Shown here: one piece after another, positions 911-23,339 of the stretch
Layout: the number at the start of each line of letters is the position of its first letter
How positions within the stretch are numbered: the stretch's first letter is position 1
Source of the DNA: Streptomyces sp. SCL15-4
Lineage (GTDB): Bacteria; Actinomycetota; Actinomycetes; Streptomycetales; Streptomycetaceae
Assembly (NCBI RefSeq): GCF_033366695.1
Contig: NZ_JAOBTQ010000001.1
Coordinates: 496,001-560,000 of the forward strand
Length of the DNA stretch: 64,000 bases
Direction: 5' to 3'
Notes under the pieces: model-generated
Database searches by the model: none
The model's input: the letters and a program-made list of their open reading frames with translations, nothing else
Told to the model about the DNA's origin: nothing
Position numbers and translations under genes: made by a program

Positions 911-1948
911 GTGACCGGAACCATCAGGAGCATCGCGCCCCTCACCGACGACGTCGATTCCCCTGACGGGATCGACCTCTCCGCCCTTCCGGTCCACCTG
1001 TTGTCCACCACCGGTCTGAAGACGGACGGCTCTTCCTTCCTCCGGTCGGCGGGCCTCGACCCGGAACACGTGCGCACGCTGTACGAGGCGGGAGCGGAGG
1101 CACCTCCGATCGTGGTGCACCGGCGCACCATGCGGGTCGTCGACGGAAGGCACCGGCTGTGCGCCGCCCGGCTGCGCGGCGAGGAGTACATAGCGGCCCG
1201 GCTCGTCGACGGCGAGGACGACGACATCTTCCTCCTGGCCGTGAAGCTCAACATGAGGCACGGCCTTCCGCTGTCCCGGGACGACCGGATGGCCGCGGCC
1301 CGGCGCATCATCCGCGGTCACCCGGACTGGTCCGACCGGCGCATCGCGCGGGCCAGCGGTCTGTCGGACAAGACGGTGGCCGCCGTCAGACGCTCGGCCG
1401 GCGACCTGGCGGAGACGGGGACGCGCGTGGGGCGGGACGGACGAGCGCGGCCGCGGCAGACCGCCGAGGCCCGCATACGCGCGGCGGAACTGCTGCGGGA
1501 CAATCCCCGCATCTCCCTGCGGGAACTCGCGAGCGCGGCCGGGATCTCGCTGGGCACGGCCCGGGACGTCAGGGTACGCGTGCTGCGCGGGGCCGATCCG
1601 GTCCCGGACGGGCAGCGCCGGCCGAGGGCCTCGCAGGGCCCGCCCGCGCCGTCGGCGGAGCCGCTCACCGCTCCGCTGAACCCCGCGGAACGGCAGCGCG
1701 CCATCGCCCGGCTGGCCCGCGATCCGTCGCTGCGGCAGACCGAGACGGGCCGTACCGTACTGCGCATCCTGGCCGTCCACTCGCTGGGCGCCGCCGAGTT
1801 GGAGCGTCTGGCCCGCGCCGTCCCGCCGCACGGCGTCGACGCGGTGCTCACGCTGGCCCGCGCGTGCGCCGACGACTGGTCCCGGTTCGTCCGGCGTCTG
1901 GAGTCGGGCGCACTGGTCGGGCCGGCGGAGGGCCGACGCCGGCCGTGA
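911..1948 (+). CDS. StrR-family pathway-specific activator (ParB-like domain plus HTH)
   Basis: The protein has 345 residues and shows a ParB/Srx-like N-terminal domain with the signature VVDGRHRLCAARL near residue 80. Two helix-turn-helix segments follow, one around WSDRRIARASGLSDKTV and one around SLRELASAAGISLGTA. This is the layout of StrR (streptomycin) and NovG-type activators, which bind several promoters within their own antibiotic cluster. I chose GTG 911 because GGAGGT lies at 895-900; an in-frame GTG at 887 has that ribosome site inside the coding region. The gene is monocistronic and converges on the leftward biosynthetic operon ending at 2007. The promoter overlaps a DasR-type operator, so chitin-derived amino sugar may control it. 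Family assignment is fairly sure; targets are inferred. Confidence 0.85.
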   Translation: MTGTIRSIAPLTDDVDSPDGIDLSALPVHLLSTTGLKTDGSSFLRSAGLDPEHVRTLYEAGAEAPPIVVHRRTMRVVDGRHRLCAARLRGEEYIAARLVDGEDDDIFLLAVKLNMRHGLPLSRDDRMAAARRIIRGHPDWSDRRIARASGLSDKTVAAVRRSAGDLAETGTRVGRDGRARPRQTAEARIRAAELLRDNPRISLRELASAAGISLGTARDVRVRVLRGADPVPDGQRRPRASQGPPAPSAEPLTAPLNPAERQRAIARLARDPSLRQTETGRTVLRILAVHSLGAAELERLARAVPPHGVDAVLTLARACADDWSRFVRRLESGALVGPAEGRRRP

Positions 1949-2006
1949 TCCGGCGGGCCGGTCCGGTGCGGCGCCGTGGGCCTCCGGCGGTGGGAGGCGA
2001 TCGGCG

Positions 2007-2561
2007 TCACAGGGGCCTGCCGGTCCGTGACCGCTCCGTGGCCAGCAGGGCGGCCGCGTACGCGCGCAAAACGGGCTGTTCCCACTCGTCGACGACCTGG
2101 CGGACCCGGCAGCCGCCCGCCCGTACCGGCAGGGCGACCGCCGCGGCGTAACGGTACATCCGGTAGTCGCCGGACGCGGTGGCGTGGAAGGCCCGGGGGC
2201 TGCCGCCGGCCAGCTCGGCCCACTCCCGCTGGCCGAGGCCCAGCGCCGTACGGGACAGCTCCAGCAGGAACGGTGCGCACAGTCCCGGCCGGAGCGCCGT
2301 CACCGCCATGCCGTTCCTCGTGGTGGCGAGGTCGGCGCACAACGGTCCGTCGTCGCAGGCGTGCCGTTCGTCCAGCGCGCCGAGCACGGTGTCGACGGCC
2401 CAGTCCTGCTCCGGGCCGCGGCGGGGCAGCAGATACGCGGCGTGGAACGCGCACGGATGGGAGGCACCGGCGGGTCCGCCCACCCTCCAGATGGCGCAGA
2501 TCCGGCGGGTGCGCCCCAGCACCAGGGCATTGACGTGAAGTCCTGGTCGCGTGGCTGGCAT
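2007..2561 (-). CDS. Hypothetical protein, last gene of the leftward biosynthetic operon
   Basis: I do not recognise this 184-residue protein. It has no signal peptide or membrane segment. It contains several cysteines and histidines in its first half and a predicted helical C-terminus rich in Arg and Ala (around RQVVDEWEQPVLRAYAAALL). The start at 2561 is preceded by AGGAG at good spacing; an upstream in-frame start at 2582 has no such site. It lies 90 bases downstream of the VioC/AsnO-like oxygenase on the same strand, so it is probably co-transcribed with it, and it converges with the StrR-like gene. A tailoring or accessory role in the same pathway is inference from position only. Confidence 0.6.
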   Translation of the reverse strand: MPATRPGLHVNALVLGRTRRICAIWRVGGPAGASHPCAFHAAYLLPRRGPEQDWAVDTVLGALDERHACDDGPLCADLATTRNGMAVTALRPGLCAPFLLELSRTALGLGQREWAELAGGSPRAFHATASGDYRMYRYAAAVALPVRAGGCRVRQVVDEWEQPVLRAYAAALLATERSRTGRPL

Positions 2562-2651
2562 CGCCTGTCTCCTGGAGGGCACCGCGTGGTGCGGTCGGGG
2601 TGGTGGGCGCCGGCCGGGTCCGGGGCGGCCGGACCCGGCGGGGGAATGCCC

Positions 2652-3641
2652 TCAGTGGCTCAGGACGTAACCGTCGCCGGGCCGGTGACCGCGGGAGCGC
2701 CGCAGATCGGCGACGGCGAAGGTGCGCAGCAGCCAGCGGTCGGCACCGTCGTAGCGGGGCCGGAACGCCGTACGCCCGTGCGTCGTCACGCGGTTGTCCA
2801 CGACGACGAGGTCGCCGGGGGCCAGCCGGACCGTGTGGGCGGCGGCGTCCACGGCGGCCTCCAGTTCGGCGAGCGCCATGCGGGCCCGGGGCGTGGTCCC
2901 GGTGGTGGCGGCGAAGTCCACGCGCAGGTCGGGGTCGTCCGCATCGCCGCACAGGACGGGGCCGGGCGGGGTGGACCCGCCCGCCGTTCCGAAGGAGGGC
3001 GGCGGCTGGGTGCTGAACTCCGGGAGGCGGAGGATCTCGCGTGTCCGGTCCGGCAGGGCGGGCAGTGCCTGGCGGACCGACCCGGTGCGCAGGGCCGCCG
3101 TGCCGTCGTGGTCGGCGCGCAGGCACAGCAGCATCACGAAGTCCGGCCGGTGCTCGTGGAAGGCGTTCTCCGTGTGGAAGGAGAGCGGTGTGGAGCCCGC
3201 GTTCCCCTGGAACTCCTCCTGCCCCGGGACCGGCACCACGTCCTGCACCAGCGCGCCCGACTTCTCCGCCGCGTAGGCGGCCGGGTCCCCGAGGCCGCCG
3301 GCCGCGGTCATCAGCAGGGTCGTGGCCGGCGTTGTCGCCCGGCGGCGGACGGAGCCGCTCACGACCGGGGTGGGGGGCAGCGGTTCCTCGTCCACGGGGA
3401 TGCCGCGGATCAGCAGGGCGCCGGTGTCACCGGAGTGCCGGCGGAAGGCGCGGACGGTCTCCCGCAGCCGCACGGGCAGCCGCTCCCAGGCCGCGCGCGC
3501 CGCGGCGGTGAACTCCGGGTCGTCCAGCATGCCGTTCGCGGTGCGGGCCACGCTCCGCGCGGCCCGCCCTACGGCCTCGGACTCGTCGGCGGACAGCGCC
3601 AGCGCGGGCGGAGCGGCCGTCTTCAGGCCGACGGTGCTCAT
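2652..3641 (-). CDS. Fe(II)/2-oxoglutarate oxygenase of the VioC/AsnO (TauD/clavaminate synthase-like) family
   Basis: This 329-residue protein has the iron-binding facial triad of the TauD superfamily: H156 and E158 in SFHTENAFHEHRPDF and H288 in VTTHGRTAF, with the 2-oxoglutarate-binding arginine near 306 (RWLLRTF). HTE rather than HTD, together with the FH-HRPDF context, is typical of the VioC, AsnO and MppO group, which hydroxylate free L-arginine, L-asparagine or enduracididine in antibiotic pathways. The substrate is therefore probably an amino acid or amino-acid-derived intermediate, which is inference. Its ATG overlaps the TGA of the WD40 gene (ATGA), so translation is likely coupled. 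Length and all key residues are normal for the family. Confidence 0.88.
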   Translation of the reverse strand: MSTVGLKTAAPPALALSADESEAVGRAARSVARTANGMLDDPEFTAAARAAWERLPVRLRETVRAFRRHSGDTGALLIRGIPVDEEPLPPTPVVSGSVRRRATTPATTLLMTAAGGLGDPAAYAAEKSGALVQDVVPVPGQEEFQGNAGSTPLSFHTENAFHEHRPDFVMLLCLRADHDGTAALRTGSVRQALPALPDRTREILRLPEFSTQPPPSFGTAGGSTPPGPVLCGDADDPDLRVDFAATTGTTPRARMALAELEAAVDAAAHTVRLAPGDLVVVDNRVTTHGRTAFRPRYDGADRWLLRTFAVADLRRSRGHRPGDGYVLSH

Positions 3642-5518
3642 CGGGGATCCCTCCGGTCCTGCCAGTTTGTGGCCAGTTCGGTGGGGGCGGGTGCACGGCC
3701 GGGGCCGGCCTCCGCCGACCAGAGCAGCACCCTGCTGTCCCACGAGGCGGTGACCGGGTGGTCGCCCAGCCAGGTCACGGCGCTGACGGCGCTGCCGTGC
3801 CCGTCCAGCACATGGCTGTGCAGCGGGGCCAGGGTGTCGGGGTCGAGGACCCACAGCCGCGCGGTGTAGTCGTAGGAGCCCGTGACCAGCAGCGGCCGGC
3901 CGCCGGGGTGCCACGCCGCGCACTTGGCGGACTCGTCGTGGCCGACCAGGACCTGGAGCAGTTCACCGGTCCGCAGGTCGTACAGGCGGCAGGTGCGGTC
4001 CCGGGAGACGGTGGCGAGCAGCGCCCGGCCAGCCACCTCCGTCACCGACCCGCCGTTGATCAGCTCGCCGTGCCCGCCGAAGGAGCGGATGAGGGTTCCG
4101 TCGGTGTCGATCAGGTGGGCCTGACGGTCGGTGGAGTAGGTGACCAGGCGTCCGGAGCCGACCCAGGACACGTCCTTGATGGCCCCGTGGTGGCCGTCGT
4201 AGTGGATGCCGGGCACCAGCTCGCCGCCCGTCCAGGTGTACAGGTCGAGCCCGCCCTCGTAGTCGGCGACCGCGAGCCGCTGTCCGTCCGGCGACCAGGC
4301 GACCCGGTTCACCGGGTGCTCGCGCTCGACGAACGCGACATCGCGGCCGGTCCGCGCGTCGGCCACCCCGACCCGGCCGGAGAAGGAGCCGTACGCGAGG
4401 AGTCCGGGCAGCGCGGCGGACAGCGCGACCGTGTTGACGAGGCTGCCGTTGCCCACCGGGACCTCGGGCGCCGTCGCGCCCGGGTCGTCCCAGAAGCGGA
4501 CCGTGCCGTTGTCGCAGCCCGCCGCGAGCGCCTCGCCGGCGGCGGAGACGTGGTTGACGCCGTGGGTGGCGACCGGCGCGTCGAGGGTGATCTCGCGGAC
4601 CTCGTCGGGCAGGGCGTCCGCGGGGATCTCGGGTACGTCGATCACGGCCGGCCGCGCCGAGAAGGTGCCCGCGACCAGGGTCCGGCCGTCCGCCGACCAG
4701 TCCACCGAGCGGGGCCACAGGTGCGGGCCGTACCAGCGCACCAGGGGGCGGCAGTCGGCGATGTGCCAGAGGGTGACCGTGCTGTCGTAGGCCCCGATGA
4801 CGAGCCGGGCGCCGTCCTGGGACCAGGCGACCGACTTCACGGCGGCGGTGTACGGGCCGACCTTGGTGACCAGTTCGCCGTCGGAGCGCACGATGTGCAC
4901 GAAGCCGTCGTCGCAGCTGGCCGCGAGCAGGGTGCCGTCCGGGGACCACCGGCACATCTCCGCGTGACCGGCCTGCGGAAGGTCGCGCAGCAGGGATCCG
5001 TCGGTGTCCCACAGCCGGATGGTCGCGTCCTCGCCGCAGCTCGCGAGGACGCCCGTGGCGGAGGCGTCCACCGACATGCAGTGGTCGGCGTGGAAGATGA
5101 CACCGTCCTCCAGGGTGCCGGTGCGGATGTCCCAGATCCGGCCCGTGCCGTCCTGGGAGACGGTGACCAGGCGGTTCTCGTCCAGCCAGGCCAGCGCGTT
5201 GAGGTCGTCGGGCTGCCGGGCGAGCAGCTGGACCTGGCGGCCGGTGGCCACGTCCCAGATCCGGCAGGTCTTGTCGGCCGAGCCGCTGGCCAGCAGCCGG
5301 CCGGAGGGCGAGAACCGCACACCGTTGACCAGGCGGGAGTGGCGGCCGACCCAGAGCGGGGCGGTACCGGACCGCTCCCACAGGGCCACCCGCCCGTCGT
5401 AGCCGGCGCTGGCGAAGTGGACGCCGTCCGGGCTGAAGGCCACGGACGTCTGGGGGGAGGCGTGCACCGCGGTGCCGCTGTCGGGGGACTCGGGCTGGAA
5501 GACGTCGACGGTTCGCAT
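3638..5518 (-). CDS. WD40-repeat protein (about two seven-bladed propellers)
   Basis: This 626-residue protein is built almost wholly of WD40 repeats. Blades are marked by repeated SPDG turns and closing W/L-D motifs such as CRIWDVATG, GRIWDIRTG and IRLWDTDG; I count roughly thirteen or fourteen, consistent with two joined propellers. There is no signal peptide, membrane segment or fused kinase or protease domain, so it is probably a cytoplasmic scaffold. It sits inside a biosynthetic operon, 48 bases after the glycosyltransferase-like gene, and its stop overlaps the start of the oxygenase (ATGA). A stand-alone WD40 protein in such an operon is unusual; it may organise the pathway enzymes. 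The ribosome site is weak (AAGGAG is about 13 bases away), so the start is less certain. Confidence 0.85.
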   Translation of the reverse strand: MRTVDVFQPESPDSGTAVHASPQTSVAFSPDGVHFASAGYDGRVALWERSGTAPLWVGRHSRLVNGVRFSPSGRLLASGSADKTCRIWDVATGRQVQLLARQPDDLNALAWLDENRLVTVSQDGTGRIWDIRTGTLEDGVIFHADHCMSVDASATGVLASCGEDATIRLWDTDGSLLRDLPQAGHAEMCRWSPDGTLLAASCDDGFVHIVRSDGELVTKVGPYTAAVKSVAWSQDGARLVIGAYDSTVTLWHIADCRPLVRWYGPHLWPRSVDWSADGRTLVAGTFSARPAVIDVPEIPADALPDEVREITLDAPVATHGVNHVSAAGEALAAGCDNGTVRFWDDPGATAPEVPVGNGSLVNTVALSAALPGLLAYGSFSGRVGVADARTGRDVAFVEREHPVNRVAWSPDGQRLAVADYEGGLDLYTWTGGELVPGIHYDGHHGAIKDVSWVGSGRLVTYSTDRQAHLIDTDGTLIRSFGGHGELINGGSVTEVAGRALLATVSRDRTCRLYDLRTGELLQVLVGHDESAKCAAWHPGGRPLLVTGSYDYTARLWVLDPDTLAPLHSHVLDGHGSAVSAVTWLGDHPVTASWDSRVLLWSAEAGPGRAPAPTELATNWQDRRDPR

Positions 5519-5566
5519 GCTCTTGTCGCACTCCTTGAACGCGTGTCGGTTTCGGCGGCGGAAGGG

Positions 5567-6793
5567 TCAGGTTCCGGTGGTGCGGTGGTGTGTCCGCGGG
5601 CGGGGCGCGGGCGCCGGCTCGCGGGCCAGTTCCGTGCCGGTGTCCAGGCCCTCCTCGACCAGTGCGCGCAGGGGGTCCATGACCCGGCGCAGCAGCGGGA
5701 GCCCGGCCACCTGCGCCAGACCGCCCAGCGGGATGGTCTCGGCGGCGCGCGCCCGTACGGCCGGATCGAGGCGCGGCTCGCCGGTCAGCGCGGGGCCGGG
5801 GGCGGCGAGCAGACGGGCCAGGACGAAGCCGTAGAGGACGCCGGCGGTCCAGGCACCGGTGGCGTGGTGGATGTGCAGTCCGCCGGCCGTGAGCCGGCGC
5901 AGCAGCGCGGCCGGCCGGGGCTCGATCCTGGCCAGGTGCCGGATCCGGTCGGGGTCCAGGCCCAGGTCCGGTACGCACTCGTCCCAGTAGGTCTTCACGT
6001 AGGTGCCGTCGGGGCCGGTGGGCGTGATGCCGTAGACATGGCCCTTGAAGAAGTGGGGGTAGAAGGCCAGTGGTCCGAGGGTGGCGGTGCCGGTCCGGCC
6101 GCCGCCCGTGTCGTCGGCGAAGCAGGGTGAACGCCGGGGCCCCTGGTTGTCGTTGCCCACCAGGCTGTCGCCCGCGCCGTGTTCGACCAGGTTGGGCACG
6201 GAGATGAACAGTGCCCGGCCCCGCCGGCGCAGGAACGCGGCCAGCGCCTCGTCGTCGGGGGGCGCGTCGGCCGCGAGCAACGTCTTCGCGTGGGCGGCGA
6301 ATTCGGCGGCCAGCGCGCGGGGCAGCACGACGGCGAGAGAGGGCACGTACTCGTCCGGGACGGCCTGGGCCCAGCCGGCGCCCGCGAGGGCGGCGAGCCG
6401 GACCGGCGAGCCGTTCCAGTGGTTCCAGTTGCTGTAGAAGGCGATCGGGTCGTCCGGCCGGCTCCGTACGGCCTCGGCCACGAGGTCCGTGAATCCCGCG
6501 GCGGGCAGGGCGTCGTCCTGGAGGACGAGCCGGTGGCTCGCCTCCCCGTACGGGCCGTCCCAGGCGGACGCCGCGGTGCGCAGGGCGCTCGGGGGTCCGT
6601 CGGGCTCCGGGTCGAGGACGACGCACCGGTCGTCGCCGTGGAGCCGGGCCAGGACGGCCTCCGCCTGGTGCCGCCGGCGCGGGTGGGCCATGATCCGGAT
6701 GCCGATGCGCGGTGCCGGGCCGGGACGGCCGGCGGTGGCGGCCGGACGCTGTGTCATGTCACTTCCTCGGAGGGCCGCGGGGGTCTGTGTCAT
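5567..6793 (-). CDS. Putative glycosyltransferase (GT-A-like fold)
   Basis: The 408-residue protein begins with RIGIRIMAHPRRRHQA and continues with an RLVLQDDALPAAGF segment that resembles the acidic metal/nucleotide-binding stretch of GT-A glycosyltransferases in actinobacterial clusters. IAFYSNWNHWN follows. The last 70 residues carry a hydrophobic amphipathic stretch. The donor and acceptor are unknown. Two start codons 36 bases apart (6793 and 6757), each preceded by GGAAG and each opening with MTQ, lie in a degenerate tandem repeat at 6755-6968; I take the upstream one. The gene follows the MFS exporter and precedes the WD40 gene in one leftward operon. The family call is moderate and rests on the short acidic motif and context. 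Confidence 0.6.
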   Translation of the reverse strand: MTQTPAALRGSDMTQRPAATAGRPGPAPRIGIRIMAHPRRRHQAEAVLARLHGDDRCVVLDPEPDGPPSALRTAASAWDGPYGEASHRLVLQDDALPAAGFTDLVAEAVRSRPDDPIAFYSNWNHWNGSPVRLAALAGAGWAQAVPDEYVPSLAVVLPRALAAEFAAHAKTLLAADAPPDDEALAAFLRRRGRALFISVPNLVEHGAGDSLVGNDNQGPRRSPCFADDTGGGRTGTATLGPLAFYPHFFKGHVYGITPTGPDGTYVKTYWDECVPDLGLDPDRIRHLARIEPRPAALLRRLTAGGLHIHHATGAWTAGVLYGFVLARLLAAPGPALTGEPRLDPAVRARAAETIPLGGLAQVAGLPLLRRVMDPLRALVEEGLDTGTELAREPAPAPRPRTHHRTTGT

Positions 6794-6968
6794 GTCACTT
6801 CCTTGGCGGACACGGGCAACGGGGACAGGTGACTTCCACGGAGGCCGCGGGACGCCGGGCACTCCCCTGAGGTTGCGGGAAACCGGGCATGTCACTTCCC
6901 GGAGGTCGCGGGGCGCTGGGGCATGTCGTGTGCTCGGTGGCCGAGGAGAAGCGGGTCATGTGGCTTCC
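6755..6968. repeat. Degenerate tandem repeat (period about 35 bases) at an operon junction
   Basis: CATGTCACTTCC or a close variant occurs at 6755, 6791, 6826, 6888, 6922 and 6957, each followed about 5-10 bases later by a GGAGG-CGCGGG-like block. Spacings are 36, 35, 62, 34 and 35. Read on the coding (minus) strand, most copies give GGAAGTGACATG, a ribosome site plus start codon. One end copy is the MFS stop region and two are the alternative starts of the glycosyltransferase gene, which suggests tandem duplication of the gene junction. Confidence 0.7.
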
Positions 6969-8320
6969 TTGGCCGCCGCGGGGGGCGGTTCACGGTCCGG
7001 CCCGGTGTCCCGGGCCGCCCGCGCCGGGTCCGGGCGGTACGGGGGCGGGGCGGCCGTCTCCTCCTCTTCCTCCGGGCCGGCGGCGCGGGCCGCCACGCGG
7101 TGGGCCGTGGCCCGTAGCCCGGCGGCCGCGAGCAGGACGATCCCGCCGAACGCGGCGCACACCCAGAGGGCACCCCGGTCCAGGACGAATCCGGCGAGCG
7201 CGGGGGTCAGGAGCCCGGACACCGCCCAGGAGAGCTGGAAGAGCGACATGTACCGGCCGCGGATCGCCTCCGGGGCGCTGCTCGCCACCAGGGCGTTGGC
7301 GGCGGGGAGGCTGATCATCTCGCCCACGGTGAAGGCCAGCAGCACCGGCACGAGCAGGACGATCGCGGTGGTGGCGGGCAGTCCGGTCACCAGGTACAGG
7401 CCGGTGAAGACGGCCGTGAAGACCAGGGCCGCCCGGACCAGCAGCCGCTCCCGGGGCACACCGGAGACCTTCGCGGTGACCGGCAGCTGCGCCAGCGTGA
7501 TGACCACGCTGTTGATCCCGAGGAAGAACGCCGGGACCCAGCCCGGCAGTCCCATGATCTCCACGGTGTACGCGGGCAGCAGCGTCGCCGGCAGCGCCCA
7601 GGCGAAGGTGAGGAGCATGAAGGAGAGACAGAACGCGGTGAACGCGTGGTCCTTCAGCGCTCCCCGCCAGCCGGTCTGCGTTCCGCTGCCGGGATCCTCG
7701 GTATCGGGCGTGTCCTTGGTGTCGGTCCCGGTGCGCTGCCGGGTCGTGGGAACGCGCACCCCGGCCAGCAGTACCGCGGCGACCAGTGAGGTCGCCACGT
7801 TCACGGCCAGTACCAGGTCCGCGGCACCGTGGCCGAAGGCGACGGTCAGCGCGGAACTGGCCAGCGCGCCGGTCGCGACGGTGAAGTTCTTGATGGTGCC
7901 CACCGCCGCGTAGGTGGCGTCCAGCGCGCGCCCGGAGGCCAGGTCGACCACGAGCACCGGCCAGCTCGCCCAGTACAGCCGGTCGCCGGCCATGACCAGG
8001 AACGTCGCCACCGCGATGAGGGTCCAGTCGGAGGCGAACGGATAGAGGCCGTAGCCCAGGGCGGTGACCAGGTTGGAGCCGACCAGCACGCTCTTGGCGG
8101 CGAACCGGTCGACCAGCCAGCCCGCCACCAGCGCCATCGGCAGGGAGGCCAGGGTGCCGGCGCTGACCGCCGAGCCGATCGCCGAGAAGGACAGGCCGGT
8201 GCCGAAGGAGAAGTACAGGAACGCGAGAGGGGCGAACAGGCCCCAGCCGAACGTGTCGACGAAGACGGAGGCGAAGATCCGGCCCCGCTGCCGGACCGGG
8301 GGCAGCACCGGGCCGGTCAC
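6956..8320 (-). CDS. MFS transporter, probable exporter of the cluster product
   Basis: This 454-residue protein has about twelve hydrophobic segments and the MFS cytoplasmic loop motif around GWLVDRFAAKSVLVG between helices 2 and 3. The layout is of the drug/proton antiporter type, with a charged Thr-rich central loop (near TRQRTGTDTKDTPD) between the two six-helix halves and a Glu-rich cytoplasmic tail. GTG 8320 overlaps the stop of the upstream glycosyltransferase (GTGA), indicating tight translational coupling. Its stop lies in the repeat that precedes the next gene. Export of, and self-resistance to, the pathway product is the likely role, inferred from family and position. The substrate is unknown. 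Confidence 0.85.
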   Translation of the reverse strand: MTGPVLPPVRQRGRIFASVFVDTFGWGLFAPLAFLYFSFGTGLSFSAIGSAVSAGTLASLPMALVAGWLVDRFAAKSVLVGSNLVTALGYGLYPFASDWTLIAVATFLVMAGDRLYWASWPVLVVDLASGRALDATYAAVGTIKNFTVATGALASSALTVAFGHGAADLVLAVNVATSLVAAVLLAGVRVPTTRQRTGTDTKDTPDTEDPGSGTQTGWRGALKDHAFTAFCLSFMLLTFAWALPATLLPAYTVEIMGLPGWVPAFFLGINSVVITLAQLPVTAKVSGVPRERLLVRAALVFTAVFTGLYLVTGLPATTAIVLLVPVLLAFTVGEMISLPAANALVASSAPEAIRGRYMSLFQLSWAVSGLLTPALAGFVLDRGALWVCAAFGGIVLLAAAGLRATAHRVAARAAGPEEEEETAAPPPYRPDPARAARDTGPDREPPPAAAKEAT

Positions 8321-9447: not shown

Positions 9448-9572
9448 TGTGGTCCTCTGCTGGCGGGTCCTCTGCTGCGGGTCTCTGCCGGGGGCCTCTG
9501 CCGGCGGTCGGGTGGAGGGACGGAGCCCGGGCCGTGGGCCGCTTGTGGCCGGGCGGAGACCGGCGGGGCGCG

Positions 9573-9820
9573 GACGGTACGGCGCGTCGGCCGGACCGGC
9601 GCGGGACGTACGGCGGTCGGCCCGGCCCTCACCGGTCCTACGGCGCGTCGGCCGAACCGCCACAAGCCGTACCGCACATCGACCGGCCTCGCACACGCCG
9701 TACCGCACGCCGACCGACTCCGCGCACGCCGTACCGCACGCCGGCCGATCCGGCGCACGCCGTACCGCACATCGACCGGCCCGGCACGGGCCGTACGGTG
9801 CGTCGACCGGCCCGCGCGGC
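9573..9820. repeat. Tandem repeat array, 31-base unit, about eight copies
   Basis: Units begin at 9635, 9666, 9697, 9728, 9759 and 9790, exactly 31 bases apart, with two more diverged copies upstream (near 9574 and 9605) and a decayed partial copy after the last. Four central units open with the same GCCGTACCGCAC; the other 19 bases vary around CGACCGG. The period is not a multiple of three and no gene covers it. The array fills most of the 592-base gap (9448-10039) between the GT2 gene and the cyclohydrolase gene. I see nothing else in that gap except the GT2 ribosome site. Confidence 0.8.
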
Positions 9821-10684: not shown

Positions 10685-10738
10685 GTCCCACCCTCCAGCC
10701 ACTCGTTTTCCTGCGGAATTCGATGAACGGTTCGGTGG

Positions 10739-10894
10739 TCATCCCCACTGCGAATCCCCGGGATTTCCGTCGGCCGCGGCGATCTCGTGGTGAGGTGCGT
10801 CGTGCATTCCTCCGAGGGCCGGTGAACCGAGCACCAAGGCAGCCGCCACGATCAGGGCGGCGATGATTCCGTGAAGGTTCTTGGACGCGTCCAT
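10739..10894 (-). CDS. Small exported or membrane peptide (51 aa)
   Basis: The ORF starts at ATG 10894 with GGAGAGG seven bases upstream. The peptide has a short charged N-terminus (MDASKNLHG), a hydrophobic stretch of about 16 residues (IIAALIVAAALVLGSPAL) and a His/Asp-rich tail ending GDSQWG. It looks like a signal peptide with a mature part of 20-25 residues, or a small membrane peptide. It is transcribed divergently from the LuxR-type regulator at 11043 and lies just upstream of the cyclohydrolase gene. The arrangement resembles peptide-signal/regulator pairs, but I know of no proof for this family. A signalling role is inference; it could instead be a structural or precursor peptide. 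Confidence 0.65.
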   Translation of the reverse strand: MDASKNLHGIIAALIVAAALVLGSPALGGMHDAPHHEIAAADGNPGDSQWG

Positions 10895-10983
10895 GGATAC
10901 ACCTCTCCGTCTTTTCCGGCGCATCCGTCCGGATCAGGTCCGGGTGTTTCCCGGTGCACCCCATGCTGCGCAGGAGTTCACTC

Positions 10984-11011
10984 TTGCGACAGGGGAACGC
11001 TGTGGCAAGAT
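10984..11011 (+). promoter_or_regulatory. Candidate promoter of the LuxR-type regulator
   Basis: TTGCGA (10984-10989), 16-base spacer, CAAGAT (11006-11011), about 30 bases before the start at 11043. It lies in the 148-base divergent region shared with the small peptide gene. Confidence 0.4.
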
Positions 11012-11042
11012 CCTGCATCGCGTGAACATGAAGGTGGGACAT

Positions 11043-16702: not shown

Positions 16703-17836
16703 ATGACCAGCGTACGAAGCGCTCCGCCGACCCCCGCGACGGTCTGGGCCGCCATGCGCGAGCGCGTCCCGGAACTCACCGTCGACCTGGACACCTGGAC
16801 GCGCCGCATGATGCGGTGGCACTTCTCGCCGGAGACCGGCTCGCCCTTCTGGGTCTCCCGCCGGTCCTCGCTCGGCTTCGATCCGCTGACGGATGTCGAC
16901 GGCTTCGCGGCCCTGGAGCTCTTCGGCCTCTTCGACAAGGAGGAGCTGCGCGCCGCGTCCGCGCGCGACCTTCGTCCGCGCGGCTACCAGGGGCGCCCCT
17001 TCCGGATCTTCGAGACCGGCGGGACGACCGGCGCCCCCTGCCGGATCGTCAACGTCACCCGCCTCGACCTCGACGTGCGGATCTACTCCGTCATGCTGAG
17101 GGCGCGCGGGCTGGCGGGCGGCGACATCCTGGCGATGACGCCGATGGGCCCGCACGCCTACGGGCACTTCGTGGAGGCCCTCGCGGACACCTGGAACGGT
17201 GCCGTGCACGCCATCGACCTCGACCCGCGCTGGGTCAAGGCGACGCTGCGCACCGGCGGCGACCCCCGCGCGTACACCGACCACCTGATCGCCCAGACGG
17301 TGCCGCTGCTGACCCGCGAGCGGCCCGCGCTGCTGTTCACCACACCACGCCTGCTCGTCGAACTGGCCCTGCGGCTGCCCGAGCCCCTGCACACGTACGG
17401 GGTCCGCGCGGTGTGCACCGGAGGCACGTCGTGCACGCCGGCCGAGGCGCAGCACCTGCGGGAGACGCACCTGACGGGCGTGCAGTGGATCGACACCTAC
17501 GGCAACACCCTGGTCGGCCACGCCCTCCAGGCCGACGCGGTGCCGGACGGCCCCGCGCTGCCGGAGGGCGGCACCCACTCGTACCATCTGCCGCCGCCCT
17601 TCGCGGTGCTGACCGTCGTCGACCCGGACGACCCGTGGCGGGAGGTGGCGGTGGGCGAACGGGGCCGGGTGCGGGCCACCACGCTGCTGGAGGACCTGTT
17701 CATCCCCAACCTCCTCGAACGCGACAGCGCGGTCCGCACGGGCCCCCACCCCTGGTTCCCCTGGGACGGAGTGGCCGCCGTACGGCCGGCCGACACGGCC
17801 GGCGACGAGGAGGAAGCCGTGGAGGGCGTGTACTGA
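16703..17836 (+). CDS. Adenylate-forming enzyme, PaaK/LuxE-like
   Basis: The 377-residue protein has the AMP-forming motif FETGGTTGAPCRI near residue 110 and the later conserved segments VCTGGTSCTPAE and WIDTYGNTL, matching phenylacetate-CoA ligase and acyl-protein synthetase relatives. It is shorter than most ligases (about 430 residues) and seems to lack the mobile C-terminal subdomain, as in LuxE. It should activate a carboxylic acid as acyl-adenylate and pass it to a thiol, possibly the cysteine of the neighbouring reductase. AGGAG lies just before ATG 16703. It sits in the rightward operon between the reductase and the PhyH oxygenase. The acid substrate is unknown. Confidence 0.8.
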   Translation: MTSVRSAPPTPATVWAAMRERVPELTVDLDTWTRRMMRWHFSPETGSPFWVSRRSSLGFDPLTDVDGFAALELFGLFDKEELRAASARDLRPRGYQGRPFRIFETGGTTGAPCRIVNVTRLDLDVRIYSVMLRARGLAGGDILAMTPMGPHAYGHFVEALADTWNGAVHAIDLDPRWVKATLRTGGDPRAYTDHLIAQTVPLLTRERPALLFTTPRLLVELALRLPEPLHTYGVRAVCTGGTSCTPAEAQHLRETHLTGVQWIDTYGNTLVGHALQADAVPDGPALPEGGTHSYHLPPPFAVLTVVDPDDPWREVAVGERGRVRATTLLEDLFIPNLLERDSAVRTGPHPWFPWDGVAAVRPADTAGDEEEAVEGVY

Positions 17837-17883
17837 CCCGCTCACCGCGCGCCGCCCGCACCCCTCGCACCGGAGGAAATCCC

Positions 17884-18768
17884 ATGCCGCACCCCACCAT
17901 GCCGCGACCGGCCCTGTCCTCCAACGGCGTGCCGATAGCGTTCTCGCCGGACCTGTTCGGCCCGCTGCGCGGAAGTGCCGGACTCCTCGGCGATCCCGGC
18001 GCCCTGCGCGAACGCCTGCACGCCGACGGCTACGTGTACCTGCCCGGTGTCCTGGACCGGGCGGAGGTGCTGCGCCTGCGCGGCGCGTACTTCTCCCTCT
18101 TCCCGGACGGCTACCTGGCCGACGGCACCCGTCCCGAGGACGGCGTCTTCTCCGGCAGCGTGCCGGCGGGGCTCCCGGAGCACGGGCTGCCCCGGCACCC
18201 GGCCCACGCCTTCGTCCGGTCGGCCGGGTTCGAGCGGTTCATGGCCGACCCGCTGCTGTCCGACCTGGCCGAAACCCTGCTCGGCGGCAGTGTCCGGATG
18301 CTGCCCCGGCGGATCCTGCGCCACTTCCACCGAGGCTCCCGGCGCGCGTCCCGGGCCCATGTGGACCTCGACTACATGAACGCCGTCTCGGCGTCCCCGC
18401 GCGTGGTCACCCTGTGGATACCGGTGGGCGACTGCCCGCTGGCCACCGGCCCGCTGATCTACCTGGAAGGGTCGCACCGGCTCCGGCCCGAGGAGTACGC
18501 GCCGCTGCGCGAGGTCACCGACCGCCCCGGCGACCGGCGGCCGATCAGCCACGACCTGGAGCTGACCGCCCGTCACCTGGGACGCCGCTGGCTGTGGACC
18601 GACTTCCGCGCCGGAGACCTGATGGTGCACCTTCCGCGGATCGTGCACGCCTCGCTGGACAACACCACCGACACCCTGCGCCTGTCCGCCGACGTGAGGT
18701 TCATCCGTGCGCAGGACACGCCCGACCCGCGCTGGCTCGTCCCGTGGTCGGCGGACGACGGCGCCTGA
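17884..18768 (+). CDS. Phytanoyl-CoA dioxygenase (PhyH) family Fe(II)/2-oxoglutarate oxygenase
   Basis: The 294-residue protein has the HxD iron motif (H159, D161 in RAHVDLDYM). The distal histidine (probably H255 in IVHASLDN) and the 2-oxoglutarate-binding arginine R266 (TLRLSAD) lie at the expected spacing. The segment GPLIYLEGSHRL is typical of PhyH proteins. In secondary metabolism these enzymes hydroxylate, halogenate or epoxidise small substrates; there is an aspartate in the motif, so a halogenase is unlikely. The start has GGAGGAAA five bases upstream. The gene lies 47 bases after the adenylating enzyme in the same operon. It is the second 2-oxoglutarate oxygenase of the cluster, of a different subfamily from the VioC-like one. 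Confidence 0.85.
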   Translation: MPHPTMPRPALSSNGVPIAFSPDLFGPLRGSAGLLGDPGALRERLHADGYVYLPGVLDRAEVLRLRGAYFSLFPDGYLADGTRPEDGVFSGSVPAGLPEHGLPRHPAHAFVRSAGFERFMADPLLSDLAETLLGGSVRMLPRRILRHFHRGSRRASRAHVDLDYMNAVSASPRVVTLWIPVGDCPLATGPLIYLEGSHRLRPEEYAPLREVTDRPGDRRPISHDLELTARHLGRRWLWTDFRAGDLMVHLPRIVHASLDNTTDTLRLSADVRFIRAQDTPDPRWLVPWSADDGA

Positions 18769-18800
18769 CCTTCCCGCACCCAGCCGATCGGAGCCCTCCT

Positions 18801-20009
18801 GTGTCCACCGCGCCCGAGCCGACCGTTTCCCGCCTCGCCGACCGTCTGACCGCCTACGCGGTCCTGGCCCACGACCCGGCGGTGCCGCGGATCGCCGCCG
18901 ACTACTGGGCCCTGAGCGAGGACCACTACCGCACGGTGGACGCCGCGCTCGCCGGCCTGGTGGCCGCGGACCCGGCCGCCTGCGGCGCCTACCGGGCCGT
19001 CGTCGGCGACCCCGCGGACACGGCGGCGCAGCACACGCTGCGCGACCGCCTCGGCGTCCTGCTCGCCGGGCGGGCCGGAAGGCGGGCGGAACTGGCGGCG
19101 GCGGTCGCCGAGGCCGACGGGCGGATCTGGATCGACTACCACCTCGGGGCCGACTACACGGCGGCGGAGCCGGCACCGCGCTCCGGGACACCCGCCGTGC
19201 CGCGGGTCCGCCAGGAGTCCTCAGATGTCGCCCCGGTCCAGGTGGTGATCCCCTTCCGGGACCGCTCGGGCGGCCCGCGCACCCGCAATCTGCTGGCCTG
19301 CCTGCGCGCCCTCGCCGACCAGGAGGACGCCCCGGCGCACCAGGTGACGGTGGTGGAGTGCGACGGCGGGCCGCGCTCCCGGGACCTGCTCGACGGCGTG
19401 GTCGACCGGTACGTCCTCGCGCCCAAGGACGGCCTGTTCAACAAGGCGTGGACGGTCAACGTGGGAGTCGTGGAGGCCACCCGCCCTCTCCCGGCCGGTC
19501 GGGCGGTCCAGGTGTGCGTCCTGGACGCCGACATCCTGGTCGACCGGCACTTCGTCGCCCGCAACACCGCGCGGCTGGCCGACGGCGGGCACGGCGCCCA
19601 CCTGCCGTTCCGCTGGTCGCTGTCGCTGGACGGCCCGTCCACCGCGCGCGCCATCGGCCTGCGCACCGAGGCCGGTGCCGCCGACGTGCCCGGTTCCGTG
19701 CTGCGCGGCCTGCTGCTGCGCGAACCTCCGGGCGGCTGTGTGTGGGTGCGGTCCGACGTCTTCCACGCGGTGGGCGGATTCGACGAGCGGTACGAGGGGT
19801 GGGGCGGCGAGGACGACGACGTGGTCGCCCGGCTGGCCGCCGCCGCCCCGCTGCGCCGCTACGACGACGCGCTGCTGCACCTGGACCATCCGCGCCCGGA
19901 GATGACCCGGGACGACGGCAGGCCCTTCAACGCGCACATCGAGCCGCTGAGCTGGTCCCCGGAACACGGCTACGGCGACCCGGAGAAGTTCACCCCGGCC
20001 CCGGCCTGA
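18801..20009 (+). CDS. Family 2-like glycosyltransferase with GT7-type C-terminal motif
   Basis: The 402-residue protein has an N-terminal helical extension of about 140 residues, then a GT-A core: VQVVIPFRDRS, NKAWTVNVGV, CVLDADILVD (DxD) and the galactosyltransferase-like acceptor motif GGFDERYEGWGGEDDDV. This last motif is shared by GT2/GT7/GT27 enzymes. It should transfer a sugar from a nucleotide donor in the cytoplasm; no membrane segment is seen. GTG 18801 is preceded by GGAG. It is the last gene of the rightward operon and its 3' end overlaps the convergent Gfo/Idh gene by 20 bases. The function of the N-terminal extension is unknown. Confidence 0.82.
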   Translation: MSTAPEPTVSRLADRLTAYAVLAHDPAVPRIAADYWALSEDHYRTVDAALAGLVAADPAACGAYRAVVGDPADTAAQHTLRDRLGVLLAGRAGRRAELAAAVAEADGRIWIDYHLGADYTAAEPAPRSGTPAVPRVRQESSDVAPVQVVIPFRDRSGGPRTRNLLACLRALADQEDAPAHQVTVVECDGGPRSRDLLDGVVDRYVLAPKDGLFNKAWTVNVGVVEATRPLPAGRAVQVCVLDADILVDRHFVARNTARLADGGHGAHLPFRWSLSLDGPSTARAIGLRTEAGAADVPGSVLRGLLLREPPGGCVWVRSDVFHAVGGFDERYEGWGGEDDDVVARLAAAAPLRRYDDALLHLDHPRPEMTRDDGRPFNAHIEPLSWSPEHGYGDPEKFTPAPA

Positions 20010-20958
20010 CCGGCGCTCCGCCCAGGGCGTCGGAACGCTCCGCGGCCACGATCACGTCGTCGACGAGGACGGCCTCGGCCACCGGGCACACCGGTGGCCG
20101 CCCGTCCCGCACGGCCGCCCGGAAGTCGGCGAGCAGCGGCAGATGGGGATTGGGGTGTCCGGGCGCGTCCACCACGCGGTGCTCTCCCGCCGGGCCGGTG
20201 ACGCGCAGTTCGCCCGAGTCCAGCGGGTCCAGGACCAGCGAGCGGTTGCCGCCGTGGAGGGCCAGCCGGTCCACCGGCGGTCCGCCGCCCCACTCCAGCA
20301 GGCAGTGCGCGCGCGTCCCGCCGGGCCAGGCCAGCTCCAGATCGGCGGTGCGTTCGGCGCCGGCGGGGAACCGCCGGCCCAGCCGGGCCCGTACCTCGGC
20401 GGGCGGTCCGAACAGCGTCAGCAGCAGGTCCAGGCGGTGGCTGCCCGCGTCGGCGAGCACCCCGCCGCCGGACACGGCCGGATCGGTGCGCCAGCGCATG
20501 GGGTCGTCCGGGCCCGGGTCGAACGCGTACCGGAACCGGACCTCGATCCGCTCCGGTGTCCATCCGGCCAGCTCCCGGCGGACCTCGCCGAGGACGGGGG
20601 CGAGTCTGCGGTAGTAGGCGACGCCCGCGCGGGCCCGCGCGGTGGCGAGCCCGGCGCCGCCCGGGCGCAGCGCCCCGGCCAGTGGTTTCTCCACCAGCAC
20701 GGGCAGCCCGGCGTCGAGGACGGCCTTGGCGAGCGGGACGTGGCGGTCGACGGGAGTGGCGACGTACACCGCGTCCGTTCCCTCCAGCAGGCCCCGCGGG
20801 GAGGTGCCGGACCGGGGCACGCCCCACCGGGCCGCCGCCGACGCCGTACGCCCCGGGTCCCGGCCCCACAGGAAGACCGGTTCCTCGCCGAGCGCGCGCA
20901 GGGCGGGCAGCACGCGGCGGGAGACGATGTCGCCGTGGCCGGCCACGGCCCACCTCAC
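19990..20958 (-). CDS. Gfo/Idh/MocA-family NAD(P)-dependent oxidoreductase
   Basis: The 322-residue protein has an N-terminal Rossmann fold (WAVAGHGDIVSRRVLPAL, with an atypical GHGDI turn), the family signature VLVEKPLAG and the substrate-domain motif GGGVLADAGSHRLDLL, which contains the conserved Asp and His. Family members oxidise sugar or inositol hydroxyls or reduce keto-sugars. Paired with a StrS aminotransferase, they often make the ketone that is transaminated to an amino sugar (as in the kanosamine route), which is a plausible role here. GTG 20958 lies 10 bases after the stop of the zinc alcohol dehydrogenase, so the two are co-transcribed. Confidence 0.87.
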   Translation of the reverse strand: MRWAVAGHGDIVSRRVLPALRALGEEPVFLWGRDPGRTASAAARWGVPRSGTSPRGLLEGTDAVYVATPVDRHVPLAKAVLDAGLPVLVEKPLAGALRPGGAGLATARARAGVAYYRRLAPVLGEVRRELAGWTPERIEVRFRYAFDPGPDDPMRWRTDPAVSGGGVLADAGSHRLDLLLTLFGPPAEVRARLGRRFPAGAERTADLELAWPGGTRAHCLLEWGGGPPVDRLALHGGNRSLVLDPLDSGELRVTGPAGEHRVVDAPGHPNPHLPLLADFRAAVRDGRPPVCPVAEAVLVDDVIVAAERSDALGGAPVRPGPG

Positions 20959-20968
20959 GGGCGTGTCC

Positions 20969-21964
20969 TCACGGGACGATCGCCACCTTGAGCGTGCGGG
21001 GCGGCGGGCCGTCGTAGGGGGCCTGCTCCGCGTCCGGGTAGAGGACGCGGCTGGCCGACAGCCGCTCCATCGCCTTGGGCAGCTCCTCCAGGGAGTAGGT
21101 GTGGGTGAGCAGCTCGGGCAGGTGCAGCTCCCGGCTGCGGGCGAGGCGTTCGGCGGTCGCCAGGGCCTCGGCCCGCGCGGTGTCGAGGGGTTCGGCGGAG
21201 CTGTGCACCCGGATGCCCTTGCGCTCCCAGGTCACCAGGTCCACGGTGACCCGGGTGTCGATGTGGTGGGTGCCGAGCATGACCACGAGCCCGTTCTGGC
21301 GTACCAGGTCCACGCACGCGTTGAGCGTGGTCGGGGTGCCCACGGCGTCCACGGCCACGTCGAACGCGGCTCCGACGCCGAGCAGCTGGTCGCGGCTGCC
21401 GTCGACACGGCGCACCGCGTCGGCACCGAGGCGCGAGGAGCGCTCCAGCCGCCAGTCGTCCAGGTCGACGGCCGTGATCTCCGCGGCCCCGCGCAGGGCC
21501 GCCATCCGCAGTGCCATCAGGCCCACCGGGCCCTGCCCGACCACCACCACCCGGTCGCCGAGCCGCACCCCGCGGGTGGCGTGGACGGCCAGCGGCAGCA
21601 GTTGCAGCAGGGCCCCCTGCGCGAAGGGCACCGTGTCCGGCAGCGCGCCCACGGAGATCTCCCGGGCGAGCGCGTAGTCGGCGTACCCGGAGGTCAGCGG
21701 TGTACGGACGAACACGCGCCGGCCCGGGGCCACCCGGGTCACGCCCGGTCCGACGGCCTCCACCGTGCCGGCGATCTCGTGGCCGAAGCAGCCCTGGGAG
21801 CAGTGCTCGCGCAGCCCGTGGTAGTGGTAGTAGGCGAGGTCGCTGCGGTTGCAGACGGTGCACGCCCGCACCCGGACCAGGACCTCCAGCGGCCCGGGCT
21901 CCGGCACCGGCACACCGGTGGCCAGGCGGATGTCGCGCCGGCCGGCCAGTTCATACCGTCGCAT
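20969..21964 (-). CDS. Zinc-dependent medium-chain alcohol dehydrogenase
   Basis: The 331-residue protein has the MDR layout: catalytic-zinc cysteine in ACTVCNRSDL, GCFGHEIAGTVEAVG with the GHE zinc region, and the nucleotide-binding VVVVGQGPVGLMALR. The four-cysteine structural zinc loop appears to be missing, as in sorbitol-dehydrogenase-like and some pathway enzymes. It probably oxidises or reduces a sugar or cyclitol hydroxyl with NAD(P). The gene overlaps the MFS stop by 14 bases upstream and is followed after 10 bases by the Gfo/Idh gene, so all three form a leftward operon that faces the rightward biosynthetic operon. Confidence 0.87.
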   Translation of the reverse strand: MRRYELAGRRDIRLATGVPVPEPGPLEVLVRVRACTVCNRSDLAYYHYHGLREHCSQGCFGHEIAGTVEAVGPGVTRVAPGRRVFVRTPLTSGYADYALAREISVGALPDTVPFAQGALLQLLPLAVHATRGVRLGDRVVVVGQGPVGLMALRMAALRGAAEITAVDLDDWRLERSSRLGADAVRRVDGSRDQLLGVGAAFDVAVDAVGTPTTLNACVDLVRQNGLVVMLGTHHIDTRVTVDLVTWERKGIRVHSSAEPLDTARAEALATAERLARSRELHLPELLTHTYSLEELPKAMERLSASRVLYPDAEQAPYDGPPPRTLKVAIVP

Positions 21965-23339
21965 GCTTCTTCTCCTCCGTCGGGGGCACAGCGATTCTGC
22001 GGGCGATCGGGACGGCCGCGGCGGTGACCGCCAGGGCGAGGGCGAACACGGCGGCGAAGGCGGCGGTGTCCTGTCCCACGCGCACATGCGCCGCGTTGAA
22101 CAGCGCGCCGCACAGGCCGACCAGGAGCACGCTGCAGAGGTTGTCGGACAGTTGCAGCGAGGCCGAGTTGCGGCCCTGCCGGCCGGCGGGCGAGTGTTCG
22201 AGGGTGAGGACGCCGATGCCGGGCAGCAGCAGGCCCATGCCGAACCCGGCGATCACGAGCCCGGCGCCCACGGTCGCGGCGGGCATCGCCCGCAGGGTGC
22301 CGCAGAGGGTCAGGGCCGTGCCCGCCCCGTGGATCAGCACGCCGGCGAGGACCACCCGCTCGCGGGGCAGCGGCAGCCCGGGGTGCCCTTGCAGCCAGGA
22401 GCCGGCGAACCAGGTGAGGGCCGCGCCGGTGAGCGACATCCCGGCGGTGCCGGGCGACCACTGGCGTTCGTTGACCAGCATCAGCGGGATGTAGGTCTCG
22501 ATGGTGAAGTAGGCGCCCGCCGTGACGCCGCGCAGCAGCACCAGCGACGGTATGCCGCGCGCCGCGCGCAGGCTGCCGGCGGGCAGCGACGGCCGTACCC
22601 AGACGGCCAGCAGTACGAGTCCGGCGGCGGCCGCCGCCGCCCGGCGGAGGCCGGTCTCCGCTCCCGCGTACTGGAGCAGCCCGGCTCCGAGGGCGACCGC
22701 CGTCGCGGGCAGCAGCCGCAGCCCGTCCGGCTCCTCCCGGTCCTCGCCGCCGGTCGTCGGGAGCCGCCGCAGCAGCGCGGCGGGCAGGGTCAGGGCCAGC
22801 ACGCCGAGTGCCGCGATGCCGTGGAACACCCACGCCCACGACAGGTGCTGGGCGACCGCCCCGGCGACCGGCGGCCCCACCATGGAAGGAACGATCCAGC
22901 AGGCGGTGACCAGGGAGAACATCCGGGGCCTGAGGGCCGCCGGATAGACCCGGCCGACCACCACGTACAGCGCGACGGTGACCGCTCCCCCGCCGAGCCC
23001 CTGGACACACCGGCCCAGCACGAACGGGGCGATGGAGGTGGCGGTGCCGCAGAGCAGCGCGCCGCCGGAGAAGCACAGCAGTCCGGCGGACAGCACCGGC
23101 GCCGGTCCCCGCCGGTCGGCCGAGCCGCCGCCCAGCACCGTGCCCACCATGCCGGTGGTGAGGAACCCGCCGAAGGCGAGCCCGTACAGCCCGAGCCCGT
23201 CGAGGTCCTGGACGGCGAGCGGCATCACCGTGCCGAGGGCGAGCCCGGCGAACGCGACGAGGACGAACAAGGCGGCCACCGCGAGGGTGCACGCCCGGTA
23301 GGCGGCCGAGAACAGACCGCCCGGGGCCGACGACGTCAT
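21951..23339 (-). CDS. MFS transporter (second exporter of the cluster)
   Basis: The 462-residue protein shows twelve to fourteen hydrophobic helices, the loop 2-3 motif near GGGSADRRGPAP and a motif C-like glycine-rich helix in VPSMVGPPVAGAV that is characteristic of drug antiporters. This suggests export by proton antiport. It heads a leftward operon with the two dehydrogenases. Start 23339 has only a weak ribosome site; longer in-frame starts upstream are possible. It is divergent from the GH3 gene and the dre site at 23491 lies between them, so its expression might also respond to DasR. The substrate is unknown, presumably the cluster product or a precursor. Confidence 0.83.
   Translation of the reverse strand: MTSSAPGGLFSAAYRACTLAVAALFVLVAFAGLALGTVMPLAVQDLDGLGLYGLAFGGFLTTGMVGTVLGGGSADRRGPAPVLSAGLLCFSGGALLCGTATSIAPFVLGRCVQGLGGGAVTVALYVVVGRVYPAALRPRMFSLVTACWIVPSMVGPPVAGAVAQHLSWAWVFHGIAALGVLALTLPAALLRRLPTTGGEDREEPDGLRLLPATAVALGAGLLQYAGAETGLRRAAAAAAGLVLLAVWVRPSLPAGSLRAARGIPSLVLLRGVTAGAYFTIETYIPLMLVNERQWSPGTAGMSLTGAALTWFAGSWLQGHPGLPLPRERVVLAGVLIHGAGTALTLCGTLRAMPAATVGAGLVIAGFGMGLLLPGIGVLTLEHSPAGRQGRNSASLQLSDNLCSVLLVGLCGALFNAAHVRVGQDTAAFAAVFALALAVTAAAVPIARRIAVPPTEEKKHATV

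Follow-up and report, generated by a model that had tools for sequence, protein, structure and literature searches.

The locus described here raises the question of whether two opposing gene sets in Streptomyces sp. SCL15-4 form one biosynthetic gene cluster, and what their enzymes would make. They lie in a window of 64,000 nucleotides (G000:C1:496001-560000) of an 8.42 Mb genome, and the nearest named relatives of the window genes are from Streptomyces. An initial annotation had proposed a single cluster without polyketide synthase (PKS) or nonribosomal peptide synthetase (NRPS) genes at positions 911 to 23339. We placed genes by codon-position GC content and named them by Pfam and NCBIfam matches. 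This confirmed the two opposing gene sets and most of the enzyme types listed for them; family matches were obtained for the radical S-adenosylmethionine (SAM)/SPASM enzyme, the hydrolase-StrS fusion, the PhyH oxygenase, GTP cyclohydrolase II, the WD40 protein, the Gfo/Idh oxidoreductase and zinc dehydrogenase, and the two MFS transporters. The explanation that we favour, and consider somewhat probable, is that the locus is a junction of two modules, A and B, and that module B is a conserved pathway from a sugar-derived substrate to an amino compound, switched by N-acetylglucosamine (GlcNAc) in most of the Streptomyces loci seen.

Borders of the locus and its two modules

The DNA common to the window and Streptomyces sp. 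WZ.A104 (locus L013, with flanks L051 and L052) runs from 2046 to 25119, about 23 kb, with 70% identity over its initial 0.67 kb; the remaining pieces are 79.6-83.8% identical. In the same comparison, the 20 kb preceding the window gave no match to WZ.A104. Because the shared DNA spans 2046-25119, the helix-turn-helix (HTH) gene at 911-1948 and the phytase gene at 25801 lie outside the conserved block. A glycoside hydrolase family 3 (GH3) gene at 23587-25101, which the annotated borders had omitted, lies inside.

WZ.A104 was the single relative found with both gene sets. The left operon and its divergent regulator gene, together module A, are complete in three genomes (G226, G488 and G363; loci L072, L074 and L076), with identities of 55-57% for the first protein, 71% for the AsnO-type oxygenase, 85% for the WD40 protein, 70-75% for the protein encoded at 5567-6757, 73-80% for the MFS transporter, 81-82% for the GT2 glycosyltransferase, 79% for GTP cyclohydrolase II and 75-76% for the regulator. 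No radical SAM relative at E <= 1e-20 was found in any of these three genomes, and the 5567-6757 protein was not found in any of five genomes with a radical SAM locus, one of which (G355) has a decayed module B core of its own (L045). An empty result carries no weight by itself, but the same query proteins do give matches in other genomes. We also surveyed 35 named loci carrying radical SAM relatives (flanks shortened in 10), and module A genes occurred only in that of WZ.A104. Counting the window genome itself, 6 of 394 sampled genomes of the family Streptomycetaceae have radical SAM relatives, and 4 of 392 sampled from the genus have relatives of the 5567-6757 protein. Since A and B each occur elsewhere without the other, a single cluster at 911-23339 is the wrong unit. 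We therefore replaced it with two modules, A at about 2007-12074 and B at 12150-25101, and the locus appears to be a junction of these two modules of specialised metabolism. Gene content and the independence of the modules were observed directly, as were the kept catalytic residues and conserved dyads described below. This modularity is also a caution: pathways that are separate may be lumped together when borders are taken from a list of genes.

A serious rival, though less probable, is that A and B act as one unit in this strain, as the initial annotation had it. Such a supercluster would make a single hybrid product, perhaps a glycosylated amino-sugar with a hydroxyasparagine-derived part, under control of the LuxR-type regulator. 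The A-B junction is common to the window and WZ.A104 over the whole ~23 kb, and only 75 bases separate the end of the regulator gene (12074) from the start of the radical SAM gene (12150). In WZ.A104, a relative of the FGE-like gene that accompanies module A elsewhere lies directly beyond the GH3 gene (L052, 2896-3678, 80% identity); the window has none. Streptomyces sp. NPDC049916 is listed with relatives of both the radical SAM enzyme and the 5567-6757 protein, in each case on a contig 164601 long, which suggests a third case. However, each module is complete elsewhere without the other, and module B has operator-like sites of its own in relatives, one of which is kept before the GH3 gene in the window.

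Conservation and predicted chemistry of the module B core

The core of module B comprises eight domains. On the forward strand, a radical SAM enzyme with a C-terminal SPASM/twitch-like cysteine motif (12150..13355; PF04055, PF13186; model mb039a707cbfc) is followed by a carbohydrate-esterase-like hydrolase fused to a StrS aminotransferase (13424..15511; PF01041, E 2.9e-82, and esterase profile matches). Then come an aldehyde dehydrogenase (ALDH)-superfamily reductase, the EhpG-like partner (15508..16692; weak Aldedh match and profile match to ALDH structures), an EhpF-type adenylating enzyme (16703..17836; 3hgu/3l2k profile, E 2.9e-56, spanning profile positions 22-366) and a PhyH-type Fe/2-oxoglutarate oxygenase (17884..18768; PF05721, E 3.2e-14). 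The reverse strand carries a Gfo/Idh/MocA oxidoreductase (19990..20958; PF22725, PF01408) and a zinc-type alcohol dehydrogenase (20969..22087, start uncertain; PF00107, PF08240). Besides this core, the module contains an accessory glycosyltransferase on the forward strand (18744..20009; Glyco_transf_7C, PF02709, E 1.7e-10), an MFS exporter on the reverse strand (21951..23408, start uncertain; PF07690, E 3.9e-37), which among the 35 loci was found only in L013 besides the window, and the GH3 gene.

All eight core domains occur together in 21 of the 35 loci, 20 of them actinobacterial and one from Bradyrhizobium (L035). Gene content was counted over the 25 loci with at least 21 kb ('full-flank loci'), a gene being scored as present if tblastn gave E <= 1e-20 with 35% identity or more; for the EhpG-like and Gfo genes the E-value alone decided. 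The esterase part, StrS, EhpG-like, EhpF-type and PhyH domains were each detected in 21 of these loci, and the GH3 gene in 17 (DasD-like copies counted). The esterase part is missing from four full-flank loci: L032 and L039, which have a decayed set, and L037 and L041, which are distant and clostridial.

Catalytic residues were compared in alignments of a subset of the loci, with 12 sequences for A1, A2 and A4 and 17 for A3. The putative esterase triad of the fusion protein (S191, D264, H300) and the StrS lysine for pyridoxal phosphate (K508) are kept in 12 of 12 aligned sequences, as is Cys263 of the EhpG-like protein, whose gene adjoins the EhpF-type gene. PhyH residues H191, D193, H287 and R298 are present in 23 of 23. 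In the radical SAM enzyme, the CxxxCxxC cysteines C64, C68 and C71 are found in 15, 16 and 16 of 17 sequences, with the losses in L032 and L039, and the C-terminal cluster cysteines C299, C317, C359 and C362 in all 17. Since the core recurs in 21 of 35 loci with its catalytic residues kept, and since exporter and regulator genes lie nearby, the data support the claim of a biosynthetic locus free of PKS and NRPS genes, although for two modules and not for one cluster.

The individual assignments differ in what they rest on. The nearest folds to the radical SAM model are DesII, BlsE and SkfB, several of which tie at 13-18% identity. DesII and BlsE are radical SAM enzymes acting on sugars. Of DesII, BlsE, SkfB and BtrN, all in this identity range, none stands out as the enzyme's own family; it appears to form a separate one, with no close solved relative. 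For the StrS part, both the sequence profile and the fold list point to sugar aminotransferases as nearest. The fold list of the fused model contains aminotransferases only and thus shows the StrS part alone, so the esterase reading rests on the sequence profile, whose nearest matches are acetyl xylan esterases (weak, E 2e-9 to 5e-8).

EhpF and EhpG activate and reduce a carboxylate. In phenazine (D-alanylgriseoluteic acid) operons, as here, AMP-binding and aldehyde-dehydrogenase proteins are encoded side by side (PMC11278526, PMC3175449). EhpF is a clear homologue of the window's adenylating enzyme; the window lacks phenazine genes. The family names LuxC and LuxE had been considered for the acid-reducing pair and were replaced after the match to ALDH structures and to EhpF. 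The acid-activating and reducing pair of the initial annotation was borne out by the EhpF homologue and by its partner from the ALDH superfamily, in which the cysteine is invariant, and 15508-17836 is predicted to encode an EhpF/EhpG-like carboxylate-activating and -reducing pair.

In the pathway that we propose, module B most probably starts from an aminosugar of the GlcNAc/chitin pool. The Gfo/Idh and zinc dehydrogenases would oxidise hydroxyls, and the StrS domain would aminate a ketone or aldehyde. The fused esterase would remove an acyl group, while the radical SAM enzyme may bring about a radical reaction of the sugar, be it dehydrogenation, epimerisation, deamination or a change of the ring. 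The EhpF/EhpG-like pair would activate a carboxylate with ATP and then reduce it to an aldehyde, PhyH could hydroxylate, and the MFS protein would export the product.

No description of this gene set was found in the openly licensed literature searched, which consisted mostly of titles and the beginnings of abstracts; MIBiG and antiSMASH were not covered. Within that range, the annotated absence of a characterised cluster with this set holds. Module B is real, conserved and, as far as could be searched, undescribed; it is ordinary in kind and unusual in its enzyme pairing. We know of no characterised pathway in which an ATP-driven acid-to-aldehyde step goes together with a radical SAM enzyme and a sugar-type aminotransferase. 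The interest of module B lies in this pairing within a PKS/NRPS-free core carried by many actinobacteria and a Bradyrhizobium, and in a putative GlcNAc switch that can be tested in relatives. Named public strains carry the module, and some, such as S. netropsis and S. alboflavus, have B alone together with its operator-like sites, so its product can be sought directly.

Several loci differ around or within the module. In three loci next to das-like genes, the radical SAM gene has decayed in place: cluster cysteines are missing in L032 and L039, most of the match is missing in L045, and in all three little of the core is left. Nine loci (L014-L017, L020-L022, L031 and L036) share, at about 1.2-9.7 kb and just upstream of module B, a conserved group of genes for phosphoesterase, NACHT NTPase, domain-less and periplasmic-binding-like proteins (Pfam on L016 only). 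In the non-Streptomyces actinobacterial loci L024, L025 and L026, module B has as neighbours an MFS gene and a gene for a large protein that resembles the beta subunit of N,N-dimethylformamide (DMF) amidase (DMFA2_C, Pfam on L025). The clostridial loci L037, L038 and L041 (47-55% identity) contain a second radical SAM gene, a StrS gene, a BtrH_N-like gene (Pfam on L037) and an AAT-type acyltransferase gene (Pfam on L041), and represent a different, possibly aminoglycoside-like cluster.

Operator-like sites and a proposed link to GlcNAc

The dre consensus, a DasR site at a promoter, is A(G/C)TGGTCTAGACCA(G/C)T (PMC4398421). Sites with at most two mismatches to TGGTCTAGACCA, 12-130 bases ahead of the radical SAM gene, were found in 16 of the 35 loci, where 0.26 were expected from the rate elsewhere in the loci; as the genomes are related, these and the following site counts are not independent trials. 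The 16 loci comprise 15 of the 22 Streptomyces loci and L029. The site occurs in two sequence forms, which argues for its upkeep. In five loci (L018, L027, L029, L032 and L039), the radical SAM gene lies beside a das-like set, consisting of GntR/UTRA, solute-binding and permease proteins and a GH3 of 55-57% identity; all but one of the five also have a protein of the glucosamine-6-phosphate isomerase type. The annotation is by Pfam on L018 and by similarity on the other four.

The second site precedes the GH3 gene (23587..25101, forward strand), which encodes a dedicated beta-N-acetylhexosaminidase (PF00933, E 9.2e-68; NF003740 below cut-off) with no signal peptide seen by eye. An operator-like dyad, ATTGGTACAGGCCAAT (23491..23506), with three mismatches to the DasR core, lies ahead of it. 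The dyad TTGG-N6-CCAA was observed within 250 bp before the cluster GH3 gene in 19 of 19 loci, the window and L052 included, counting only loci with the GH3 start and at least 150 bases ahead of it, and before the DasD-like GH3 paralogue in 0 of 5. In 704,322 bases of 37 loci, the pattern matched 30 times, 26 of these being the GH3 dyads, and the window contains a single one.

The window genome holds two further GH3 hexosaminidase-like copies (57%, at 2.20 Mb, and 45%) and two weak matches, the cluster gene being an extra copy besides the housekeeping ones. A quick tree splits cluster GH3s from DasD-like ones, with support of 0.998 for the DasD-like group and 0.923 for the branch setting this group and a NagZ-like pair apart from the cluster copies. 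The two kinds differ in 36 group-specific columns (cluster GH3s shorter than 481 amino acids excluded), and the window copy keeps the KHFPGHG...DSH motif. Protection, processing or substrate supply are possible roles for the cluster GH3.

Given the DasR-operator-like sites ahead of the radical SAM gene in 15 of the 22 Streptomyces loci, we suggest a GlcNAc switch in these relatives, with DasR as the candidate binder of both the dre-like sites and the GH3 dyad. These sites would offer a simple way to switch the pathway on. Separately, in the window itself, genes for a GH18 chitinase and an LPMO10 protein at 38836-42823 have two dre-like sites each (1-2 mismatches) near the start.

A number of points weigh against the proposed pathway and its switch. 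Within the core, the Gfo and zinc dehydrogenase genes are found in 19 and 18 of the 25 full-flank loci, which leaves 6 and 7 loci that lack them. In the two cyanobacterial loci, whose contigs are short, hardly any core gene other than those for the radical SAM enzyme and the esterase passes the tblastn threshold; such cyanobacterial and clostridial radical SAM relatives without most of the core imply that the enzyme serves elsewhere too. Fold and family matches do not fix function, as SkfB is a peptide enzyme, and the StrS fold list also contains Fic25, which acts on an amino acid derivative. The radical SAM site is missing in 19 of the 35 loci, including L013, and no DasR-type site lies ahead of the window's radical SAM gene or regulator gene (best match with four mismatches). 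Across the window, matches to the DasR core with at most three mismatches number 18 against a shuffle mean of 12.4, and 5 of 100 shuffles reach 18, so that they do not clearly exceed chance. Finally, substrate, order of reactions, product, regulation and DasR binding are all deduced from sequence. The chitin/GlcNAc hint of the initial annotation thus gained das-like neighbours and dre-like sites in relatives, but no such site before the window's own radical SAM gene. Since that site is unrecognisable here and module A's LuxR-type regulator gene lies directly upstream, control of module B in the window lineage is probably shared with, or taken over by, this regulator.

A more specific and more speculative version, to which we give a low probability, is that module B leads to a GlcNAc-derived iminosugar or amino-carbasugar inhibiting N-acetylhexosaminidases, with the GH3 as a protected or product-processing copy and a GlcNAc switch through a DasR-type repressor. 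The StrS fusion and the radical SAM enzyme would give an aminated sugar acid, which the EhpF/EhpG-like pair would turn into an aldehyde closing on the amine. A hexosaminidase inhibitor is a possible product; if so, the bacterium would make an inhibitor of chitin breakdown just when chitin is broken down. Nagstatin, siastatin B and allosamidin are aminosugar-like glycosidase inhibitors of Streptomyces, and compounds of this kind would fit the GlcNAc link and the dedicated hexosaminidase. No gene clusters for these three were found in the openly licensed literature searched, as far as its titles and abstract beginnings tell. The bacterial azasugar three-gene clusters consist of aminotransferase, phosphatase and dehydrogenase genes, the dehydrogenase being of the zinc type. 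Module B was rejected as such a cluster, as there is no phosphatase among the block genes. It has an aminotransferase and a dehydrogenase in common with these clusters (PMC8382821), but a StrS instead of a GabT-type aminotransferase, and additionally the radical SAM enzyme, the EhpF/EhpG-like pair and PhyH.

It is improbable that module B makes a cell-surface sugar or exopolysaccharide instead of a secreted small molecule. The enzymes are of sugar type, a glycosyltransferase is present in 6 of the 25 full-flank loci and glycosyltransferases lie near L028 and L035, but the glycosyltransferase is outside the constant core, the genes annotated with Pfam include no polymerase or flippase, and MFS genes adjoin several loci. 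It is very unlikely that module B serves to break down an unusual sugar derived from chitin. The das-like neighbours, the dre-like sites and the occurrence of GH3, esterase and dehydrogenases in catabolism would speak for this, but ATP-driven carboxylate reduction, amination and a radical SAM step are generally in the building direction, and the annotated core genes include no kinase or aldolase.

Module A and further loci in the window

Module A lies on the reverse strand apart from its regulator. Its first gene, the first of the shared block, encodes a protein without Pfam or NCBIfam match (2007..2582; relatives of 55-57% identity in L072, L074 and L076). The following oxygenase (2652..3641; TauD match) had been annotated as VioC-type. 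This identity was rejected: the NCBIfam VioC equivalog scores 174.2 bits against a cut-off of 418.6, and the structure 2og5 matches at E 6.1e-115 versus about 4e-40 for the arginine hydroxylase 2wbq. The whole domain aligns with 2og5, keeping the Fe-binding HxE...H, and the protein is predicted to be an AsnO-type Fe/2-oxoglutarate asparagine oxygenase. AsnO is the asparagine oxygenase of the calcium-dependent antibiotic (CDA) lipopeptide. The two oxygenases are alike, but module A has no NRPS gene in the block and instead has WD40, GT2 and GTP cyclohydrolase II genes.

The WD40 beta-propeller protein (3638..5518) matches PF00400 and many propeller families. It is followed by a domain-less protein (5567..6757; unmatched in both Pfam and NCBIfam, with 27 relatives at E <= 1e-10), an MFS transporter (6956..8320; PF07690, E 9.7e-42), a GT2 glycosyltransferase (8317..9663, start uncertain; PF13641, E 1.6e-14) and GTP cyclohydrolase II (10040..10702; PF00925, NF001591), in which the zinc cysteines and the position of E. 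coli Tyr105 are kept in an alignment to 2bz0. Of three annotated glycosyltransferases, GT2 and Glyco_transf_7C were recovered, while the domain-less protein is possibly a glycosyltransferase, by eye only.

The gene between A and B (10893..12074, forward strand) encodes a LuxR/GerE-type regulator (PF00196, E 1.2e-7), which accompanies module A in L072, L074 and L076. It had been named a StrR activator. StrR regulators have a ParB-type N-terminal domain and an HTH; here Pfam and NCBIfam gave GerE and related HTH matches and no ParB-type match, which rules out this identity. At E <= 1e-30, the regulator has relatives in 323 of the 343 Streptomyces genomes sampled, its own included.

In L072, L074 and L076, module A is accompanied by an FGE-like and a 2-hydroxyacid dehydrogenase gene; the FGE-like gene of WZ.A104 is on the far side of module B. 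In G488, dynamin-like GTPase genes and an SSB protein gene lie behind the regulator gene, and the FGE-like and 2-hydroxyacid dehydrogenase genes on the other side.

Two further loci were seen in the window. Genes for eCIS-core, RES, caspase (C14) and CHAT domain proteins stand in a row at 28045-37907, which looks like a conflict or cell-death locus. At 44447-48820, a hybrid histidine kinase of 1458 amino acids contains six HAMP stretches, GAF and receiver domains.

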